Below, piece by piece: positions 1 to 7,858 of a DNA stretch of 7,858 bases. The stretch lies in contig JAUXFG010000166.1 of the NCBI GenBank assembly GCA_030620115.1, forward strand, positions 1 through 7,858, given 5' to 3'. The first letter of the stretch is position 1. Each line of letters starts with the position of its first letter. The stretch comes from Candidatus Fermentibacterota bacterium. GTDB lineage: Bacteria; JAFGKV01. The notes below the pieces were generated by a model. The model was not told where the DNA came from, did no database searches, and saw only the letters and a program-made list of their open reading frames with translations. Both the position numbers and the translations under genes were made by a program.

Positions 1-2931
1 CCGACTTGCCTCCCTTTTCCCCAGGGATTGCAGGAGAAGCCGGGCCTTGGGATCGCTGTCCACGACGAGCGAAGAGCCATGCGCGAGCCGTTCCCTATGG
101 CGATCAGAGCCATAGAGGGAGATGAGCTCTCGATGATAAAAAGCTTGTTCCCACTGGGATTGCTGCTCGGCTCGGTCCATGGCCGACCAGTGGAGATCCG
201 CCAGCATTGCCCGTATCTTGGGACTGACCGGGTCTTTCGCAAGGGCGCGGTGACATTCAACCACTGTTTCTTCCCATACACGCTGTCGCAGCGTTTGCTT
301 GGACAAAAGAGCGAGCCAGAGCTCCCAGGAATGCCCCACGTCATCTCTGCCCGGTGAGGAGATCTCTTCAGGCAGCCGTCTGATCTTCTCCTCCAGCGAA
401 AGCAGTTCATCAATGGTGGCTTGATAGCGATCCACTGCAAGCGAGGCCATGGCCGCAACCTCTGCAAGCCTCGTCTCCTGCTCCGCCAGGAAGTTTTCTT
501 CGTCGTCATTGAGAATGCCGGATTCTTTCAAGGGGGCCATCAACGAAAGGCGAGCACCATCAAGTGCGGTGTCGAATTCCCTGGCGGACGTCATTTCGAG
601 ACTCAGGAATTGACGGAGAGCCTTGAGCTCGAGATACTCCGGCCCAAGCAGCTCGAGAAGGGCATTGGCATGGTCGGGCGTGGGAAGACCAAGGCCCGGT
701 TTTCCTCGGAACCATAGATTCGTGGCGAGCCGCAGCGTCACCAGGCGCCGCATCAGGGCCAACACTTCCTCAGCGGATTCGAGCCCTCCCGGCCTGAGCT
801 CATCCAACGGGGCTTTCCCGATTCCCGTGGCCAGCACGGAGAGGATCTCCCGGGCAGGAGCTTGCCAACGGAGAGAGATCCGACCAATTGCCCACTGAAG
901 ATGATCCCGCCTGATTCTGCGCAGATTCCAGAGCTCACTATCGACGTTTGGGTGTGCCAGAACCCAGCGCAATGCCAATTGGAGCTCCCATGGCAGCCAT
1001 CCAGTCTCCATGAGATCAGCGGCGGCGTGGTTGGCGAGATGTGATGAGGCCCCCGCCTTTTCCAGGAGATCGGCCATCTGTTCCCGGCTGGGTGGAATCA
1101 TGCCAAGCTGGCCAACTCTGGGGATCCCCGCCTCGGTGAGAAAAAGGAGCGCTGCGTCGACATCTTCTGATCGGGAGACAAGCACCAGTCGCGTGGGTGC
1201 GTGCACGTCCTCCGTCTCCGCCACTACGACTCTCATGGCATCCGACCAGCATGGACTCACTTCCGGCCACCTGCCGTGGTCATCAATCGCGATGACGTTT
1301 CCCGCGGAAGTGGGGTCGGGCGAACGATTGAGGAGCTTCTCGAGTCGCTCCAGAGGTCTCGCTCTCGGGAGGTAGAAGGCCCGCCATCCGCTCTCGCGCA
1401 GCAGTGGGAACAAGCCCGCCAAAACAAGGGATGTCCTCCCCGAGGATCCCGCCCCATGAAGCACCACCGCCTGGTTCTCCAAGACCTGTCGCAGGAGTGC
1501 TCTCGTCAGGCTTGGCTGCGAGGGGAAGCCCGGGGCCATACGCCGGGTATAGGGGCCTGTCCGTGTCGAGGGTGCCGGTTTGACGGTTACTGGTTCGATG
1601 CCATCCGAGAGTACGTTGAGAACCTGTCGGCAGGAAACCACCAGCACAAGATGATGCTTGGAGATTCTCCTCAAGGCCGACCAGCTTGTCTGCTGGGGTG
1701 TGAGAATCTGCGCTTGTAGAAGCTGTTCCGGCATATCCCCTTGGCCTTCAGGGAGACGACCAAGAACCAAGAGACGATCCTTGCCGGTTGGCCGCACCAA
1801 CCGATACGCCTCATGCAGGGTCGGCACGATGAGGGCGGTGCCCGGTTCCATGCCGTCCCGAAGTACGTGGTTGGGGGCGACTATCCGGTACCCCAGGGTG
1901 CGTACACGTCCCACCATGGCTCCGTGCTCTCCCACCATTATCACGCCCACGGGTTTCTGCTCGAGGAATATCTGTGCAAGTTTATCGTCGGCCTGACTGG
2001 TGACGATAAGGGCGCCCTGTCCGCTCCAGAGTTGCGCCAGGGCGCCGGACGCAGTCCTTAGCTGGGATTTCGCGGCGATCTTTTTGCTCACATCAAGCAC
2101 GGCCGCAAAGGATTCGGGGCGATGCGAGGGCTCGTGGGCGATCATTTCATCCACGAGATCCGCGAGATCCTGCAGTTCCTCGCTCATGAGCTGGCTGCAT
2201 GGGGTAGGGGGAGTGGCGCGGAGGGAGAGCAGCTCATCCATGTCATGTGCATTGTGGGGGAGCGTTCCAGTGAGCATCTCATACAATGTCACCCCCAAGG
2301 AGAAGACTTCGCTGGCTTCGGTACATGGATTCCCTGCAAGCGTTTCTGGCGCCATGTAGGCCGGGGTTCCCACTGATGGAAGCGCCTGGGATCCCAAGAG
2401 GAACGTAGTGCCGAAGTCAACCAGGACAAGGCTTCCCGTGGTCCGTTCCATGATATTGGATGGCTTGAGATCGCCGTGGAGCAGACCCCGCTCCATGGCC
2501 TCGCGGAGTGCCGGGCAGAGGGCTTGTAAAAGAAGCAGGGCCTGTTGCGCGGAGCAGGGGCCGTGTGTGGCGAGATCATTGGCCAAAGTGGCGCCCTCCA
2601 CCAGCTCCATGACCAAGAAAGGTACGCCTTCTTCCGTGGCTGCAAGATCGAATACTCTCGCAATGGCTGGATGGCCAACCAGTCTGCTGAATTTGACCTC
2701 CCATGCCGCGCGCGTGGCCCCATCGGGAAGGGACAAGAGTACTTTCACGGCCACGTTCAGGTCGAGACGCATATCGCGCGCTCGATAGACAACCCCATAG
2801 CTTCCTTGACCAAGCTCATCTTCCAGGAGGTAGCGACGATCGAGAATGTCCCCGGGGCCCAATGTGCCTTGGCCGGGGAGTTTCGTGGTGCCGCGAAGGC
2901 TTCGTTTTTTCCGCTTACGCGGAGTAGCCAT
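1..2931 (-). CDS. Ser/Thr protein kinase fused to a STAND-like NTPase; C-terminus beyond left edge
   Basis: The frame is open for 977 codons from ATG 2931 to base 1 with no stop, so the protein is 3'-partial. GGAGG at 2941-2945, nine bases upstream, supports the start. After a basic N-terminus (KRKKR), residues about 34-285 form a Hanks-type kinase: glycine loop GQGSYGVV at 41-48, Lys63, Glu78, catalytic loop HGDLKPSN at 152-159, DFG 172-174, APE 194-196 and Arg271. It should phosphorylate Ser/Thr on unknown targets. Deviations are HGD for HRD and Glu208 where subdomain IX normally has Asp. Residues about 305-380 are alpha/beta and resemble a PEP-utiliser swivelling domain. A P-loop-like module follows: GAGSSGRTS at 493-501 (Arg for Lys), VIAIDD at 546-551 and a sensor-like LVLVSR at 582-587. 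The rest (about 610-977) is mostly helical and possibly TPR-like. No membrane helix is seen, so it is probably cytoplasmic. The kinase call is firm; the later domains are inference. Confidence 0.93.
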   Translation of the reverse strand, partial: MATPRKRKKRSLRGTTKLPGQGTLGPGDILDRRYLLEDELGQGSYGVVYRARDMRLDLNVAVKVLLSLPDGATRAAWEVKFSRLVGHPAIARVFDLAATEEGVPFLVMELVEGATLANDLATHGPCSAQQALLLLQALCPALREAMERGLLHGDLKPSNIMERTTGSLVLVDFGTTFLLGSQALPSVGTPAYMAPETLAGNPCTEASEVFSLGVTLYEMLTGTLPHNAHDMDELLSLRATPPTPCSQLMSEELQDLADLVDEMIAHEPSHRPESFAAVLDVSKKIAAKSQLRTASGALAQLWSGQGALIVTSQADDKLAQIFLEQKPVGVIMVGEHGAMVGRVRTLGYRIVAPNHVLRDGMEPGTALIVPTLHEAYRLVRPTGKDRLLVLGRLPEGQGDMPEQLLQAQILTPQQTSWSALRRISKHHLVLVVSCRQVLNVLSDGIEPVTVKPAPSTRTGPYTRRMAPGFPSQPSLTRALLRQVLENQAVVLHGAGSSGRTSLVLAGLFPLLRESGWRAFYLPRARPLERLEKLLNRSPDPTSAGNVIAIDDHGRWPEVSPCWSDAMRVVVAETEDVHAPTRLVLVSRSEDVDAALLFLTEAGIPRVGQLGMIPPSREQMADLLEKAGASSHLANHAAADLMETGWLPWELQLALRWVLAHPNVDSELWNLRRIRRDHLQWAIGRISLRWQAPAREILSVLATGIGKAPLDELRPGGLESAEEVLALMRRLVTLRLATNLWFRGKPGLGLPTPDHANALLELLGPEYLELKALRQFLSLEMTSAREFDTALDGARLSLMAPLKESGILNDDEENFLAEQETRLAEVAAMASLAVDRYQATIDELLSLEEKIRRLPEEISSPGRDDVGHSWELWLALLSKQTLRQRVWEETVVECHRALAKDPVSPKIRAMLADLHWSAMDRAEQQSQWEQAFYHRELISLYGSDRHRERLAHGSSLVVDSDPKARLLLQSLGKREASR

Positions 2932-2940
2932 GGTTCTCAG

Positions 2941-2945
2941 CCTCC
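2941..2945 (-). promoter_or_regulatory. Shine-Dalgarno of the kinase gene
   Basis: GGAGG on the minus strand lies nine bases before ATG 2931. It is the best ribosome site near the beginning of the kinase domain. The frame stays open for some distance upstream, so this site is what decides the start. Confidence 0.7.
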
Positions 2946-3130
2946 CTCTCGGAATATAACAATAGCGATGCGCATGGCCACATTCTGGCCTGTTCGGAAT
3001 CTAAGGCGCCGCCTTCGCAGAGGAAAGAGGGGAAGCCGGCTCAAAGGACCAGCAGAAAGAAACCGCCACATAGTACTCCGTCTCGGAAGTTTTGTCCTCT
3101 GTTTTGGCAATTCAAAATGAGACGGCATTA

Positions 3131-3150
3131 GGAGATGATGAGACATCTCC
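3131..3150. repeat. Hairpin with a perfect 7-bp stem
   Basis: GGAGATG and CATCTCC pair exactly around a six-base loop. It lies about 110 bp downstream of the hydrolase stop. No T-run follows on the minus strand, so an intrinsic terminator is not well supported. An operator or mRNA-end structure is equally possible. Confidence 0.4.
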
Positions 3151-3261
3151 GGATTCTGCGACACGGGCGCGGGTGGGTGACATTGCCGGCTGCTGTGAAG
3201 GATGTAGAATTGCCGGAAACAGGTACAGAACCTCTGAAACACGATACTAGCGAGGAGAGGT

Positions 3262-3951
3262 CTAGCTCAGCGTGTAGCTGTCTCCCGGGTTGAGCAGGAT
3301 AGGCTCAGCCAGGTCGGCACGCCTCACGTCTTCGGCCCATGACTTCACATCCTGTTTGATCATGTCGAATGTGTCATAGTGCATTGGTATGACAACACGG
3401 GGTCTGATGAGCTTGATGGCTCGAAGGGCATCTTTCGGCCCCATGGTGAAGTTGTCGCCCACCGGCAGAATGGCGACATCAATACCCTCTTCGCCGATCA
3501 ACGCCATGTCCCCAAACAAGCCGGTGTCTCCCGCATGATATACCGTACCATCAGAGAGAGAAAGGAGCAGCCCGGCGGGGTTGCCGCCGTAGCTCCCATC
3601 GGGCAGGGCGGACCCGTGGAGTGCATTGGTCAGTTTGAGTGTTCCCCATGGATACTGCGCTGCTCCACCGATGTGCTGGGGATGGACGTTCTCAAGACCA
3701 TGGGTGTTCTGCAAATAAGTGACTATCTCGAAGTTTGAGATCACCATCGCGCCCGTTCGTTTGGCGATGGCAACCGTGTCACCGAGATGATCGCCGTGGC
3801 CATGGGTGACGAGAATGTAGTCGGCCTGTGCCTCATCGGCTGAGATGCTTGCCAACGGGTTCCCGGTGAGGAATGGGTCGATGAGCAGAGTGTGTTTTTC
3901 TGTCTCGATAAGGAAGGCAGAATGCCCGAGCCACGTCAGTTTAGTCGCCAT
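3262..3951 (-). CDS. UPF0173-type metal-dependent hydrolase (metallo-beta-lactamase fold)
   Basis: A 229-residue protein, the usual length for the UPF0173 branch of the metallo-beta-lactamase superfamily. The N-terminus has the characteristic WLGHSAF segment (residues 7-13). The metal site appears complete: THGHGDH at 49-55 (His50, His52, Asp54, His55), His112, Asp142 in the HAGDTG motif, and His191 in PMHYDTF. Members are cytosolic and are expected to bind two metal ions and hydrolyse a small substrate, which is unknown for most of the family. No signal peptide is seen. An in-frame ATG six codons upstream (3969) was not chosen because GGAGG at 3957-3961 sits five bases before ATG 3951, giving the N-terminus typical of the family. 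The gene is flanked by gaps of about 267 and 330 bp, so it is probably transcribed alone. The family call is firm; the substrate is not known. Confidence 0.95.
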   Translation of the reverse strand: MATKLTWLGHSAFLIETEKHTLLIDPFLTGNPLASISADEAQADYILVTHGHGDHLGDTVAIAKRTGAMVISNFEIVTYLQNTHGLENVHPQHIGGAAQYPWGTLKLTNALHGSALPDGSYGGNPAGLLLSLSDGTVYHAGDTGLFGDMALIGEEGIDVAILPVGDNFTMGPKDALRAIKLIRPRVVIPMHYDTFDMIKQDVKSWAEDVRRADLAEPILLNPGDSYTLS

Positions 3952-3956
3952 GATAA

Positions 3957-3961
3957 CCTCC
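3957..3961 (-). promoter_or_regulatory. Shine-Dalgarno deciding the hydrolase start
   Basis: GGAGG on the minus strand, five bases before ATG 3951. It lies inside the extension that the upstream ATG at 3969 would give, which argues for the shorter protein. Confidence 0.75.
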
Positions 3962-4021
3962 CGCGTCATGGGAAAGCGCTACGCCTCTTTTGAGACTTCG
4001 CTCGGAAGAAGAAACATCGAA

Positions 4022-4053
4022 CATCCAACGCCCAAAGCCTTGGGTGTTGGATG
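4022..4053 (-). terminator. Strong hairpin downstream of the membrane operon; possible terminator
   Basis: CATCCAAC (4022-4029) pairs perfectly with GTTGGATG (4046-4053). The inner GCCCAA/TTGGGT adds six more pairs, one a G-T wobble, around a four-base AGCC loop, making a 14-bp stem. Read on the minus strand, the downstream flank (about 4003-4021) is moderately T-rich but has no clean T-run. It could end transcription of the membrane operon that finishes at 4219. It may equally belong to a dispersed repeat family. The hairpin itself is certain; its role is inferred. Confidence 0.45.
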
Positions 4054-4081
4054 GGAGGACAAAGGACAGAGACCATAGATA

Positions 4082-4163
4082 TGGAGTGCGGCGACATGTC
4101 GCCGCTTTGTTTTCCCGCGACACGTCGCGGAATCTGAAAGCGGCCTCGTGCGACCGCACTCCA
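4082..4163. repeat. Compound palindromic repeat element (about 82 bp)
   Basis: The outer arms TGGAGTGCGG (4082-4091) and CCGCACTCCA (4154-4163) pair over 10 bp. Inside are a perfect 18-bp palindrome at 4088-4105, a second hairpin CCGCGAC/GTCGCGG at 4115-4130 with a two-base centre, and GCCGCTTT (4101-4108) complementary to AAAGCGGC (4137-4144). Several of these pairings exclude each other, so alternative folds exist. This layout is typical of dispersed non-coding palindromic elements in bacterial genomes. I believe I have seen similar elements in uncultured lineages, but only a genome-wide search would show whether it is repeated. Confidence 0.75.
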
Positions 4164-4218
4164 AGATTCCGTCTTCTGAACTTTATCCCGCGTAGTACGT
4201 GGGATCGGTGATGTCGCG

Positions 4219-4845
4219 CTACAGGAATCCCAGCCACTCTCCCATGAGAAACTGGAGCCGCCCAATGAGCAGAGTAATACGGCTCATTACCGTGTAGCCA
4301 AACGATGCCCCAAACCCAATCATGAGGAACACGATGCCGATCTTCGAAAAAAAGCCGAACGCCCCACGATGTTCAGCGGAGAAGTAGAAGTAGAGCAATA
4401 CGCTGATCACGCCGACGAACAAGAGGAAGGCAGAGACATTCGTCCAAAGAGAACCCTGATCGAGGAAATTCAGCATGGAGGTCTGCATCTGCTTCACGAC
4501 CCTGGTCTGAAGACCCGAGGGGATGCTGTAGCCTGCGCCTGCCGCCACATAGAATGCGATGGGGTACCGGCTCAGCCATGACTTCCTCGGAACGAGCCTG
4601 GTAAAGACAAGAAGACCGAGGATGGCACAGCCTATGAAAAGAAGGTTGCCCTGGTCGAAAAGCGGCACATACAGTTTTTTGTAGATAGCGGAGTAGGCGT
4701 ACTGTACCAGGTAGTAGCCCGCCGAAACACCCACCAGGATGTGTTCTGCCAAGCGGAACAGGGGATTGTCTTTCCAGAGGAATGAGAAGACCGCAAGCGT
4801 CAGTATGGCGGCTACCCAGATTCCGATATCACCGGACAGATTCAT
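4219..4845 (-). CDS. Six-helix membrane protein, fourth gene of the membrane operon
   Basis: A 208-residue integral membrane protein that I cannot assign to a named family. About six hydrophobic segments are visible, near residues 7-24, 34-50, 67-82, 94-110, 136-155 and 168-186. Short basic loops (KDNPLFR, RLVPRKSWLSR) separate some of them. A soluble stretch of about 25 residues (111-135) contains a Gln-rich patch, VVKQMQTS. There is no obvious catalytic motif or transporter signature. The ATG overlaps the stop of the preceding gene in an ATGA junction (4842-4845), so translation is probably coupled; GGGGAAAG lies 9-13 bases upstream as a weak ribosome site. It is the last gene of the four-gene unit and most likely a structural or channel-like partner of the other three. 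The reading frame is secure; the function is unknown. Confidence 0.9.
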   Translation of the reverse strand: MNLSGDIGIWVAAILTLAVFSFLWKDNPLFRLAEHILVGVSAGYYLVQYAYSAIYKKLYVPLFDQGNLLFIGCAILGLLVFTRLVPRKSWLSRYPIAFYVAAGAGYSIPSGLQTRVVKQMQTSMLNFLDQGSLWTNVSAFLLFVGVISVLLYFYFSAEHRGAFGFFSKIGIVFLMIGFGASFGYTVMSRITLLIGRLQFLMGEWLGFL

Positions 4846-5669
4846 GAGCTCTTTCCCCTTCTCCGCTCGATGACGTGCCCCACATTGCCGATGACTATCA
4901 TCAAGACCATGAACAGATGTGCGATTGTCTGCGCGTCCATGCCCTTTATGCCTTCGCCGGGCTGGCCCACCAGTGTTTCATATTCCGCCGCACCCTTCAG
5001 GCCGCCAAGGAAGCCGACGATCTGGCCCGAATCGTGGTATGGGTACATACGTATTGCCTCCACGGCGGTGGCCCCCACGGCAACCGGGGCGCCGTACCGA
5101 TCGTGGGCGTACTGGGCCCAGAACTGGGGCATGGCCGTGGACGAGAGACTGATGACGAGATCGATGTCGCGGTAGTTCTTGACGCTTCTCATCAGAGGAA
5201 ACTCAGTGATCAGCGTGCCATACTGATCAGTGGGGTAGACCATGGAGATATCTTCCCCAATCCTCAACATGGCGGCAGTAGGAGCAGGCACGTATCCCAG
5301 GAATACCCATTCAATGCCGTATTCCTTCTCGGCGGCGTCGGCCTCCTCCTGCAGAATGCTCTCCGCGATGCCCGGGGCGCCCGCGAGCAACGCCATGCCG
5401 AGGACGCGTGCTTTCTTGCGGAATAGATGTTTGAGAAGAGTCCGGGCCATGGGATCAAGTTCAGCCATGGTGGAGGGCTCGTAGTCGAAGCTCAAGATGA
5501 CCGTGCTGCCCTCTTCCAGCTTCTCGACGAAGTCGTAGACGTTCTGAACCTGCCTTGTCACGCTCGTGCCGAATCCTATAGGATTGAGCAGGGGAATGGC
5601 AATACTGAGCGCGACGCCCGCGAAGATGAATTTGCGATCAATATTAAGGAGCGCGTTGGGCAATCCCAC
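4842..5669 (-). CDS. Membrane-anchored alpha/beta protein, third gene of the membrane operon (GTG start)
   Basis: A 275-residue protein with a membrane helix at each end (about 13-30 and 247-264) and a soluble domain of about 215 residues between them. The domain alternates strand-like and helix-like segments, for example STVILSFDY (55-63), EWVFLGYV (120-127) and IDLVISLSS (169-177), which suggests a Rossmann-type fold. A glycine-rich segment SGQIVGFLGGLKGAAEYE (214-231) looks like a conserved family signature. Basic residues before helix 1 and after helix 2 (ERRRGK) place both ends in the cytoplasm and the soluble domain outside by the positive-inside rule. The start codon is GTG at 5669, with GGGGAG at 5677-5682 seven bases upstream and only two bases after the previous stop. 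The family resembles uncharacterised proteins I recall from Chloroflexi and similar phyla, a memory-based link only. Function unknown. Confidence 0.9.
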   Translation of the reverse strand: MGLPNALLNIDRKFIFAGVALSIAIPLLNPIGFGTSVTRQVQNVYDFVEKLEEGSTVILSFDYEPSTMAELDPMARTLLKHLFRKKARVLGMALLAGAPGIAESILQEEADAAEKEYGIEWVFLGYVPAPTAAMLRIGEDISMVYPTDQYGTLITEFPLMRSVKNYRDIDLVISLSSTAMPQFWAQYAHDRYGAPVAVGATAVEAIRMYPYHDSGQIVGFLGGLKGAAEYETLVGQPGEGIKGMDAQTIAHLFMVLMIVIGNVGHVIERRRGKSS

Positions 5670-5671
5670 GA

Positions 5672-6304
5672 CTAGTCTCCCCTGCCCAAGTAGGAGGTTT
5701 CGATTCCCAGGATGATTTTGAGAGCGGTGGCGGTCATGCCCAGGCCTACGCCGATAAGGATGCCGCGTTTTGCCGCGGTGTTGGGGTAGTCGAGTATCCA
5801 GGTAGAAATATCGGTCAATGAGAGGCCACCCACATGGATATACTCTCCCGCGGGAACCCTTCCAAGCATGACGATGACACCGGCTACCAGCAACAAGGTG
5901 GCAGTTACACTCCTGGCCCGGAAAGCCCGATATGAAGCGCTGGCAACGAAGAAGGCCAGCAGACTGAACATGCTCGACTGGGCGGGCATCTGTATATAAT
6001 CAAACATCCATTTATAGGGGCCGCCGCGGATCCCGCCAATAATTCCCGCGAGGACCATACTCACCAACCCGAGGAGTGCCACCATGCTGTAGCGATACCC
6101 CTCCTTCTTGCGTTGTATGCGGATCACGTGGTGACGCACCATGCTCAGAGTTCCCACGACAAGAACAAAGCCGAATATGACCTGCTGCCAGTCAAGGACG
6201 CCATTGTAGATTGCCTGGAAGGTTGGATGAGGAATAAAAAACTGAATCACCATAAAGGTGCCGACTACAAACGCGAAGATGAGAGGTATGGTTCGTCGAA
6301 ACAT
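5672..6304 (-). CDS. Six-helix membrane protein, second gene of the membrane operon
   Basis: A 210-residue integral membrane protein with about six hydrophobic helices, near residues 6-24, 37-55, 73-91, 110-125, 134-150 and 181-200. A basic loop after helix 2 (RHHVIRIQRKKEGYR, 57-71) indicates a cytoplasmic face there. A glycine-rich turn, GGIRGGPYKWMFDYIQMP, spans 90-107. A non-helical stretch of about 30 residues (151-180) precedes the last helix and may form an external loop. No enzyme or transporter motif is recognisable. Its ATG shares one base with the stop of the upstream gene (TAATG at 6302-6306), and I see no Shine-Dalgarno of its own, so translation probably depends on ribosomes finishing the first gene. 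It is not obviously related to the other six-helix protein of the operon, though similar size and helix number make distant homology worth testing. Function unknown. Confidence 0.9.
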   Translation of the reverse strand: MFRRTIPLIFAFVVGTFMVIQFFIPHPTFQAIYNGVLDWQQVIFGFVLVVGTLSMVRHHVIRIQRKKEGYRYSMVALLGLVSMVLAGIIGGIRGGPYKWMFDYIQMPAQSSMFSLLAFFVASASYRAFRARSVTATLLLVAGVIVMLGRVPAGEYIHVGGLSLTDISTWILDYPNTAAKRGILIGVGLGMTATALKIILGIETSYLGRGD

Positions 6305-7422
6305 TACTTGAATACGGCCACAAACTGGGGAACACCAGCGATCGACAAGATTGTCCCCAGGAGGATGAGAGCGATGGTGATTGCTTTCGCATAGTCCTGG
6401 CCTTTAAGGCTTCCGAGCAGTTTCGGTTCTTTGGAGAGATACACGCTTGCCGCGTAGAGCTCCTCACCGATGAGCGTGTAATCACACGCAGTGATGAAAA
6501 AGGGAAGCTGCGCGTCCGAATCAGTACCCGCGATTTGGATGGCCCCGGTGGCATTGCCGGTTTCGGCCAGGATCAGAGATTCAGCGTAGAACATGCCGAG
6601 CAGGAAGTTCGTGGCGGGCTTCTCCCGCATCATGATGCCGCTCACCGCAGCGGCGTATCCGAACTGGCTATAGGTGACATAATGGATGTCGTCTTCTCTG
6701 AACAGATCCGGTCGTCCGATCTGATTGTACGACTCGCGGACCACTTCCTGGCAGACCGTCATAACGATGGGATCCCTGTTGGGGACCGTGAGCCGTGTTG
6801 CGTACTTTCCGGCCTTTTTCGCGACCTGCGCAAGAATCTGGATGGAAGCAATGGTAGCCACGTCGCTCATAGTGCTTATGCCCGGCACGTACATGATGGG
6901 TCTGCCCATCTCAGTGGCCCGGCCCACGGCCTCCTCAACCGCCTCGAGACCGGCGATTCGACGGATGAACATCTCACGGCCCTTGCTGGCATGGTAGGTG
7001 AACCAGAGCAGAAGACTCGTGAATATGACCACTGCACCACACACTGCTGAGCGGCTCTTGTTGAACCATTGGATGGTGGGTGTGGCGGTTGTCTCATTGC
7101 TGACCAAGGTGGCTGAAGGGAAACGAGCCTCGAGAACGTAGGCATACGGTTCGTCAGTGACGAGATCCTTGTCGTCAATGAAGAGACTGTCACGAGCGCC
7201 CAACGACGTCAACTCGAGCGTATCGGTTTCATCCTCAGCTCTGCGGAGCAGTACGAGAGACTGCAGGGAGTCGGCCATCCCAAGCCGGTGTAAAGGAATC
7301 CACTCCAGGGTGATGGATTTGCCCCCATCATCAGGCGTATCGAATGCCGTGAGGTCAATAGGTAAACCGGCGTGGGCAGGGAAGACGAGAAGTAAAAGGA
7401 GCAGGGCAGCCATAGCTGTCAT
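6304..7422 (-). CDS. Signal peptide, FN3-like and probable DUF6754 membrane protein, first gene of the operon
   Basis: A 372-residue protein. Residues 1-18 form a signal peptide with a likely cleavage after AHA. Residues about 19-115 resemble a fibronectin type III beta-sandwich (SITLEWIP at 36-43, EPYAYVLEARF at 91-101). A membrane helix lies at about 126-143, followed by a basic segment (SKGREMFIRR) that marks the cytoplasmic side. The cytosolic domain (144-345) contains VGRATEMGRPIMYVPG (166-181) and CDYTLIGEELYAAS (313-326), which I associate from memory with DUF6754, an uncharacterised family. A last helix (346-364) ends close to the C-terminus. ATG 7422 has AGGAGG eight bases upstream, which favours it over the Met at codon 4. 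It leads the four-gene unit. The FN3-like part suggests contact with something outside the membrane, and the inner domain may bind or signal. No catalytic residues can be named. Confidence 0.92.
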   Translation of the reverse strand: MTAMAALLLLLLVFPAHAGLPIDLTAFDTPDDGGKSITLEWIPLHRLGMADSLQSLVLLRRAEDETDTLELTSLGARDSLFIDDKDLVTDEPYAYVLEARFPSATLVSNETTATPTIQWFNKSRSAVCGAVVIFTSLLLWFTYHASKGREMFIRRIAGLEAVEEAVGRATEMGRPIMYVPGISTMSDVATIASIQILAQVAKKAGKYATRLTVPNRDPIVMTVCQEVVRESYNQIGRPDLFREDDIHYVTYSQFGYAAAVSGIMMREKPATNFLLGMFYAESLILAETGNATGAIQIAGTDSDAQLPFFITACDYTLIGEELYAASVYLSKEPKLLGSLKGQDYAKAITIALILLGTILSIAGVPQFVAVFK

Positions 7423-7672
7423 TCAGGGATCCTCCTGGAGCATATTCCAGAGGGGACATGGCATTTCATTTGGGATCAAAGTACGACCGGCGGCTCAGGC
7501 TGTCCAGGAAAATGCCAGTGGAGGGGGGGAGGGAACCCGGATGTTTCATGGGACGAGCCTTGCCTTACGCGATCCTGAAGAGTACGCGTCCGAGCGCTCA
7601 GACATATCGCATGAGAAGACCAGACCCTTGCTCTCCTTTTTCGAGAGAAGCCCGCCACATATGCGGTGCTCA
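7423..7672. other. Upstream region of the membrane operon, no gene seen
   Basis: About 250 bp between the operon start and the repeat array. Frames on both strands encode low-complexity, Arg- and Pro-rich peptides without motifs. The operon promoter should lie here on the minus strand, but I could not find a convincing pair of -35 and -10 boxes. A small inverted repeat (CTCTC/GAGAG, about 7631-7647) is present. Confidence 0.55.
7431..7436 (-). promoter_or_regulatory. Shine-Dalgarno of the membrane operon
   Basis: AGGAGG on the minus strand lies eight bases before ATG 7422. It is the strongest ribosome site of the operon. It overlaps a small hairpin formed by 7432-7452 (TGGA/TCCA plus CTC/GAG with one bulged G), so access to it could depend on RNA folding. 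That effect is speculative. Confidence 0.7.
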
Positions 7673-7858
7673 GTCATTGCGAGCACCAGCGAAGCAATCT
7701 CGTTCTTGATATGAGATTGCTTCGTCGCGGTACTCCTCGCAATGACAGGTGGAGAAGTTGGTCATCGCGAACGGAAGCGCGGCGATCTCAGTTTGCGAAT
7801 GAGATTGCTTCGTTGCGGTGCTCCTCGCAATGACAGGTGGAGGAGCTGGTCATCGCGA
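7673..7858. repeat. 88-bp tandem array of a palindromic repeat, continuing past the right edge
   Basis: Copies begin at 7673, 7761 and 7849 (GTCATYGCGA), exactly 88 bp apart; the third is cut by the window end. In copy 1, GTCATTGCGAG (7673-7683) pairs with CTCGCAATGAC (7736-7746), and CGAAGCAATCTC (7690-7701) pairs with GAGATTGCTTCG (7713-7724) around an 11-base loop. A spacer of about 14 bp (AGGTGGAGAAGTTG in copy 1) separates hairpins. The core resembles the widely seen dispersed GTCATTGCGAG...CTCGCAATGAC palindromes of many bacteria, a REP/MITE-like class. No coding potential. Confidence 0.88.

Follow-up and report, generated by a model that had tools for sequence, protein, structure and literature searches.

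A conserved four-gene membrane operon of a Candidatus Fermentibacterota bacterium and its recurrent ASKHA ATPase partner genes

The window analysed here is a stretch of 7,858 nucleotides (nt) from a Candidatus Fermentibacterota bacterium (assembly GCA_030620115.1, contig JAUXFG010000166.1, positions 1 to 7,858), and its main feature is a run of four minus-strand genes, hereafter A, B, C, and D, which encode membrane proteins. An earlier note had pointed to this run and its close junctions, both of which are confirmed by the open reading frame (ORF) coordinates: A and B share one base (TAATG), B and C are separated by 2 nt, and C and D overlap by four bases (ATGA). Comparative analysis of related loci demonstrated that A-B-C-D are, with little doubt, the membrane half of a conserved seven-gene system that also comprises the genes N, G, and S. 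The four genes and the domains delimited in their products are as follows (aa, amino acids):

7422-6304, minus strand: gene A, 372 aa; signal peptide, FN3 domain (predicted outside), helix, DUF6754 alpha/beta domain (predicted inside), helix
7066..7365, minus strand: FN3 ectodomain of A, residues 20-119 (about), from VIA-align and a profile match to titin FN3
6319..7077, minus strand: residues 116-368 of A, the part that matches DUF6754, with the helices at 122-146 and 333-361 included
6304-5672, minus strand: gene B, 210 aa; membrane protein with about six helices, probably N-in/C-in by hydropathy
5669-4842, minus strand: gene C, 275 aa, GTG start; helix, Rossmann/DHS-like alpha/beta domain, helix
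4962..5555, minus strand: alpha/beta domain of C, residues 39-236, probably extracytoplasmic
4845-4219, minus strand: gene D, 208 aa; membrane protein with about six helices, following C in operons

Membrane proteins encoded by the four genes

As had been proposed, A is the only one of the four proteins with a nameable domain. It is a member of DUF6754 (PF20539), which it matches in Pfam with 398.6 bits against a cut-off of 27 (E 1.2e-119), and this family has no described function; an open-access literature search for DUF6754 found no paper mentioning it. The structure model of A (pLDDT 92.8) consists of an FN3 domain and an alpha/beta domain, each followed by a helix. The FN3 domain gave VIA-align matches with Z scores of 11-12 (best Z 12.0, 2.5 Å over 96 residues), and a profile search of known structures matched titin FN3 at E 1e-17 and returned FN3 only for this protein. 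Foldseek gave no clear whole-domain match for the DUF6754 domain, whose fold was barely probed by VIA since the list for A was filled by FN3. The sole conserved cysteine in A is C313.

No significant Pfam or NCBIfam match was obtained for B, C, or D, and scanning their homologues singly (47-65 of each) revealed no convincingly recurring family; three of the four membrane proteins thus belong to no family. B and D are compatible with the six helices that had been suggested for two of the four proteins, by hydropathy only. An inverted-homologue relationship between B and D, as in Rnf/Nqr, was rejected on profile comparison (1.6% probability). The structure model of C (pLDDT 95.6) shows a Rossmann/DHS-like domain between two helices. 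Among solved structures, the CODH/ACS epsilon subunit comes closest to it in fold (Z 9.6, 3.1 Å, 146 residues; others Z of about 8), a match approximately one Z unit above generic Rossmann folds, and therefore no function follows for C; the profile search of known structures gave nothing convincing for it, and Foldseek gave no clear whole-domain match. In homologues of C, basic N- and C-termini flank both helices, and the positive-inside rule would place the DUF6754 domain of A inside and the domain of C outside the cytoplasm. The suggestion that two of the proteins each hold one soluble domain of about 200 residues stands for C, but A carries two, FN3 outside and DUF6754 inside. Profile comparison gave a probability of 0.8% for homology between the soluble domains of A and C.

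Conservation of the operon and its partner genes

By scanning one genome per species, relatives of A were identified at 76 loci, with phyla named as labelled in the records: Stahlbacteria/WOR-3, Poribacteria, Coatesbacteria, Fermentibacteria, Zixibacteria, Cloacimonadota, Mcinerneyibacteriota, and Riflebacteria, as well as Wallbacteria, Planctomycetota, Armatimonadota, Sumerlaeota, Eisenbacteria, and others. The A-B-C-D order is kept in most A loci, and 92 complete operons were found when later loci are included, distributed over a dozen or more labelled phyla, which is the recurrence that the earlier note had named as a check. Adjacent genes in related loci overlap or are separated by no more than 30 nt in 74 of 85 A-B, 76 of 78 B-C, and 67 of 74 C-D pairs, and the coupling of the four genes is beyond chance. 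Moreover, the distance matrices of the proteins are correlated (r 0.77-0.84 among B, C, and D, 0.54-0.60 for A versus the rest, and below 0.30 in every permutation), although shared vertical descent pushes such correlations up as well. The four-gene unit is real and ancient. A is absent from all 14 well-known control genomes, and B does not follow A in 18 of 102 cases, some of which are contig ends and some a lone-A subfamily. In Fermentibacteria, lone A was also observed coupled to one or two small GNAT-acetyltransferase-like genes without B-C-D (loci L048, L050, L052, and L105).

Clustering of the neighbouring genes revealed one recurrent partner group, composed of G, S, and N, in 28 loci of several phyla. 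G is a MutL/GlmL-like ASKHA protein, S is a barrel-sandwich protein, and N is a protein of about 110 aa that is perhaps membrane-attached; G and S are sometimes fused into one chain of 900-985 aa. Some Planctomycetota carry a seven-gene operon in the order N-G-S-A-B-C-D (L131, L138, L139, L143, and L148), and in L139 the N-G, G-S, and S-A pairs all overlap by 4 nt. In Armatimonadota, either N precedes A-B-C-D with S elsewhere, or S stands just before A. Among all fetched loci, G precedes S in 51 of 71 cases and A follows S in 27 of 72, while N lies directly before G 28 times and directly before A 15 times. A complete N-A-B-C-D arrangement was also seen in a single-contig Armatimonadota genome (L168). 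In eight other Armatimonadota loci (L157, L159, L161, L163, L165, L169, L171, and L174), N is preceded by a small protein of 150-200 aa that looks like a PH-type membrane protein of bacteria (the one tested had no Pfam match), and a RecO-like gene follows D in several of them.

The co-occurrence of A and S was further examined at the genome level. S is encoded in 46 of 48 A-bearing genomes. Two phylum samples, in which S was the only partner counted, gave the same picture: among 196 Planctomycetota genomes, 43 encode both, 5 A only, 1 S only, and 147 neither, and S directly adjoins A in 29 of the 43; among 201 genomes of Armatimonadota (the phylum of L083), 183 encode both, none A only, 4 S only, and 14 neither. 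Hence, A is present in 183 of the 201 sampled Armatimonadota genomes and in approximately a quarter of the sampled Planctomycetota.

G retains the invariant ASKHA columns DCGSTTTK, DIGGATTD, and GSGG, and shares 61-69% identity with relatives from other phyla. Like the GlmL/MutL family (PF13941, NF040745, NF040744, and TIGR01319), it keeps the ATP-site motifs and matches MutL PF13941 over the whole model length (429 bits). Unlike that family, it is extended at the C-terminus by about 120 residues, it scores below the NCBIfam cut-offs (GlmL 237/475, Or-4 220.5/600, and GlmL family 183.6/204.05 bits), and its operon holds membrane proteins rather than a mutase. It also forms a separate clade: the system G and fused G-S proteins group apart from the GlmL relatives of mutase loci with a support of 100/99, in a tree whose long branches leave the inner order uncertain. 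No P-loop ATPase is present in the conserved module of N, G, S, and A-D, the ATPase of which is the ASKHA protein G. A literature search for PF13941 found no paper.

For S, the profile search of known structures gave nothing convincing. The match of S to the RnfC/NqrA barrel-sandwich domain is weak (10 of 12 members, best 7e-6), and the fused G-S protein reaches 29.6 bits against RnfC_N, for which the cut-off is 25.6. In the source genome, a lipoate-protein ligase gene (lplA) lies directly upstream of N-G-S (L108 4975-5766), and in L078 a similar gene (15118-15852) follows two ABCD sets, with two small genes in between. S was considered as a lipoylated protein on account of this neighbour, and the idea was rejected: lplA is not recurrent, and no conserved lysine is found at the S hairpin. 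A role in anti-phage defence was also dropped, since the only PADLOC matches were three weak ones to the coiled part of N, with none for A-D, G, or S.

The earlier note had proposed a stoichiometric complex of the four proteins. The recurrence of the four-gene unit across phyla is in line with this and strengthens the case for a direct complex of A-B-C-D, short of proof, but the frame was too small, as the conserved system has seven genes.

The source genome (G000; 4.1 Mb, 98% complete) carries several copies of the membrane half. Seven A, seven C, and seven D genes were detected (eight D matches, two of which are pieces of one ORF), arranged as six ABCD operons, one lone A (L019, C207), and one BCD set (L021, C122); the last two might pair in trans. 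The seven A copies share two G's, one in N-G-S and one fused to S, located as follows:

L108 5717-9167: N-G-S of the source genome, apart from the ABCD operons
L109 6132-9089: fused G-S of the source genome

Among the paralogues of this genome, mean identity is 25% for FN3, 43% for B, 39% for the C ectodomain, and 45% for D, compared with 63% for A residues 151-335 (the DUF6754 part, with the divergent L020 copy excluded). A DUF6754 part that is better conserved than the ectodomains is what docking of the inner face on a shared partner would lead one to expect. The L020 copy (C5, 7766-11085) is a strongly diverged ABCD set whose A is 30% identical and which is preceded, with a 4-nt overlap, by a gene for an SH3_3-domain protein; a low-scoring A resembling it occurs in both sister genomes searched.

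Possible mechanism and rival explanations

The interpretation that we favour, with a probability of roughly 0.4, is that a single cytoplasmic pair of ATPase and adaptor docks on DUF6754 and thereby operates several membrane units. G would bind and hydrolyse ATP, S would link G to the DUF6754 domain of A on the cytoplasmic side, B and D would relay the change to the outer face, and the C alpha/beta domain and the A FN3 domain would act outside on a substrate or partner in the envelope. Several ABCD units differing mainly in the ectodomain may be served by one G-S pair, that is, a shared motor with exchangeable heads. A fixed inner face, a free outer face, and many ABCD units per one or two G-S pairs fit one shared motor. 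As for the work done, transport or assembly at the envelope would be our first choice, ahead of remodelling. The logic, though only the logic, resembles that of Group II ECF vitamin transporters, in which a shared energising part serves several membrane units encoded elsewhere; unlike them, the present system has no P-loop ATPase and no ECF family match. It is a tentative possibility that these genes represent a new class of membrane machine, in which a GlmL-like ASKHA ATPase-adaptor pair powers several interchangeable DUF6754 complexes with differing outer heads.

Several observations weigh against the shared-motor interpretation. The Fisher p values for A versus S (2e-36 in Planctomycetota and 2e-18 in Armatimonadota) overstate independence because the species are related, the five Planctomycetota genomes with A only have no detectable S, and both A-only and BCD-only loci exist. 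FN3 cannot be an essential head because many Armatimonadota A proteins are without it, most of those examined being 260-354 aa long and too short for this domain. Gene neighbourhoods vary and suggest no substrate, and we know of no ASKHA ATPase that directly drives membrane transport.

One unlikely alternative is that G-S is a reactivase or cofactor loader that repairs a labile cofactor of a membrane enzyme formed by ABCD. Related ASKHA families activate enzymes, GlmL is thought to act as a reactivase or cofactor loader for B12-dependent mutases, and G scores on the MutL, GlmL, and Or-4 models alike (429, 237, and 220 bits). On the other hand, glutamate mutase is encoded in 4 and the lysine 5,6-aminomutase family in 9 of 49 genomes, whereas 40 genomes, including the source genome, have neither, and GlmL relatives beside mutase genes lie outside the clade of the system; a role of G as a B12-mutase helper is ruled out on these two grounds. 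Nor do A-D show an evident heme or iron-sulphur motif, C313 being the only cysteine that A conserves.

An equally improbable reading is that ABCD is an envelope sensor, in which FN3 and C would sense and DUF6754 would signal via S and G to two-component regulators. Two-component genes account for 14 of 178 genes within two genes of N-G-S, compared with 6 of 440 background genes; a PhoB-like response regulator often lies directly beside S in Armatimonadota (L160, L162, L164, L170, L172, and L175), and in the source genome S is followed by genes for a histidine kinase and for an NtrC-like regulator. However, this enrichment comes mostly from one phylum and is therefore not independent, it is not seen near ABCD (4 of 284 genes), and neither G nor S contains a receiver or kinase domain.

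It appears less probable still that G polymerises under the membrane like FtsA, MreB, or PilM, making the system a scaffold or envelope organiser. G is an ASKHA protein for which N and A-D could provide membrane sites, and its near-universal presence in Armatimonadota could suit a structural role, but we know of no filament formers in the nearest families of G (GlmL and hydantoinase).

A redox ion pump of the Rnf/Nqr type is highly improbable. Such a pump would use S as its RnfC/NqrA-like subunit, B and D as the six-helix subunits, and C as the ecto-subunit, and the system shares with Rnf/Nqr a barrel-sandwich soluble subunit (S weakly resembles RnfC_N and NqrA_N, and fused G-S exceeds the RnfC_N cut-off), two subunits of roughly six helices, and a membrane-anchored ectodomain. 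Yet no Rnf-Nqr Pfam match was present among the 51 B proteins (25 most frequent of 82 families) or the 47 D proteins listed, S lacks an invariant cysteine for iron-sulphur clusters, and an ASKHA ATPase, which has no counterpart in Rnf/Nqr, takes the place of the flavoprotein. Just as improbable is mere co-transcription of genes whose products form no complex, given that the gene order is unchanged in 92 operons from many phyla and that the proteins diverge in a correlated way.

The seven-gene system is kept in order across many little-studied and candidate phyla without an assigned function, and it seems that nobody has studied it. To our knowledge, the joining of an enzyme-reactivase-type ATPase to a membrane complex occurs nowhere else. 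Phyla with cultured members carry the system, and the question can therefore be taken to the bench.

Neighbouring genes and minor observations

Two further genes were identified in the window, and nothing was found that ties either of them to A-B-C-D:

3969-3262: metal-dependent hydrolase, downstream of the four genes
2931-1: Ser/Thr protein kinase with an attached nSTAND1-like P-loop region, truncated at the end of the contig

Other candidate partners were also rejected. Transketolase and a UvrD-like helicase were recurrent flanks that proved specific to Fermentibacteria loci, and a link to amino-acid degradation via an adjoining aminotransferase was promising but not recurrent.

In addition, repeats flank the operon on both sides. 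Between D and the hydrolase gene (4082-4163), there is an imperfect inverted repeat of 40 nt with a loop of 2 nt, within which the stem at 4088-4105 is followed by T-rich sequence and is terminator-like on the plus strand only. Upstream of the operon (7673-7848), a partly palindromic sequence of 88 nt occurs twice in tandem, the copies being 78% identical, and a 16-nt core of this repeat is also present in L072.

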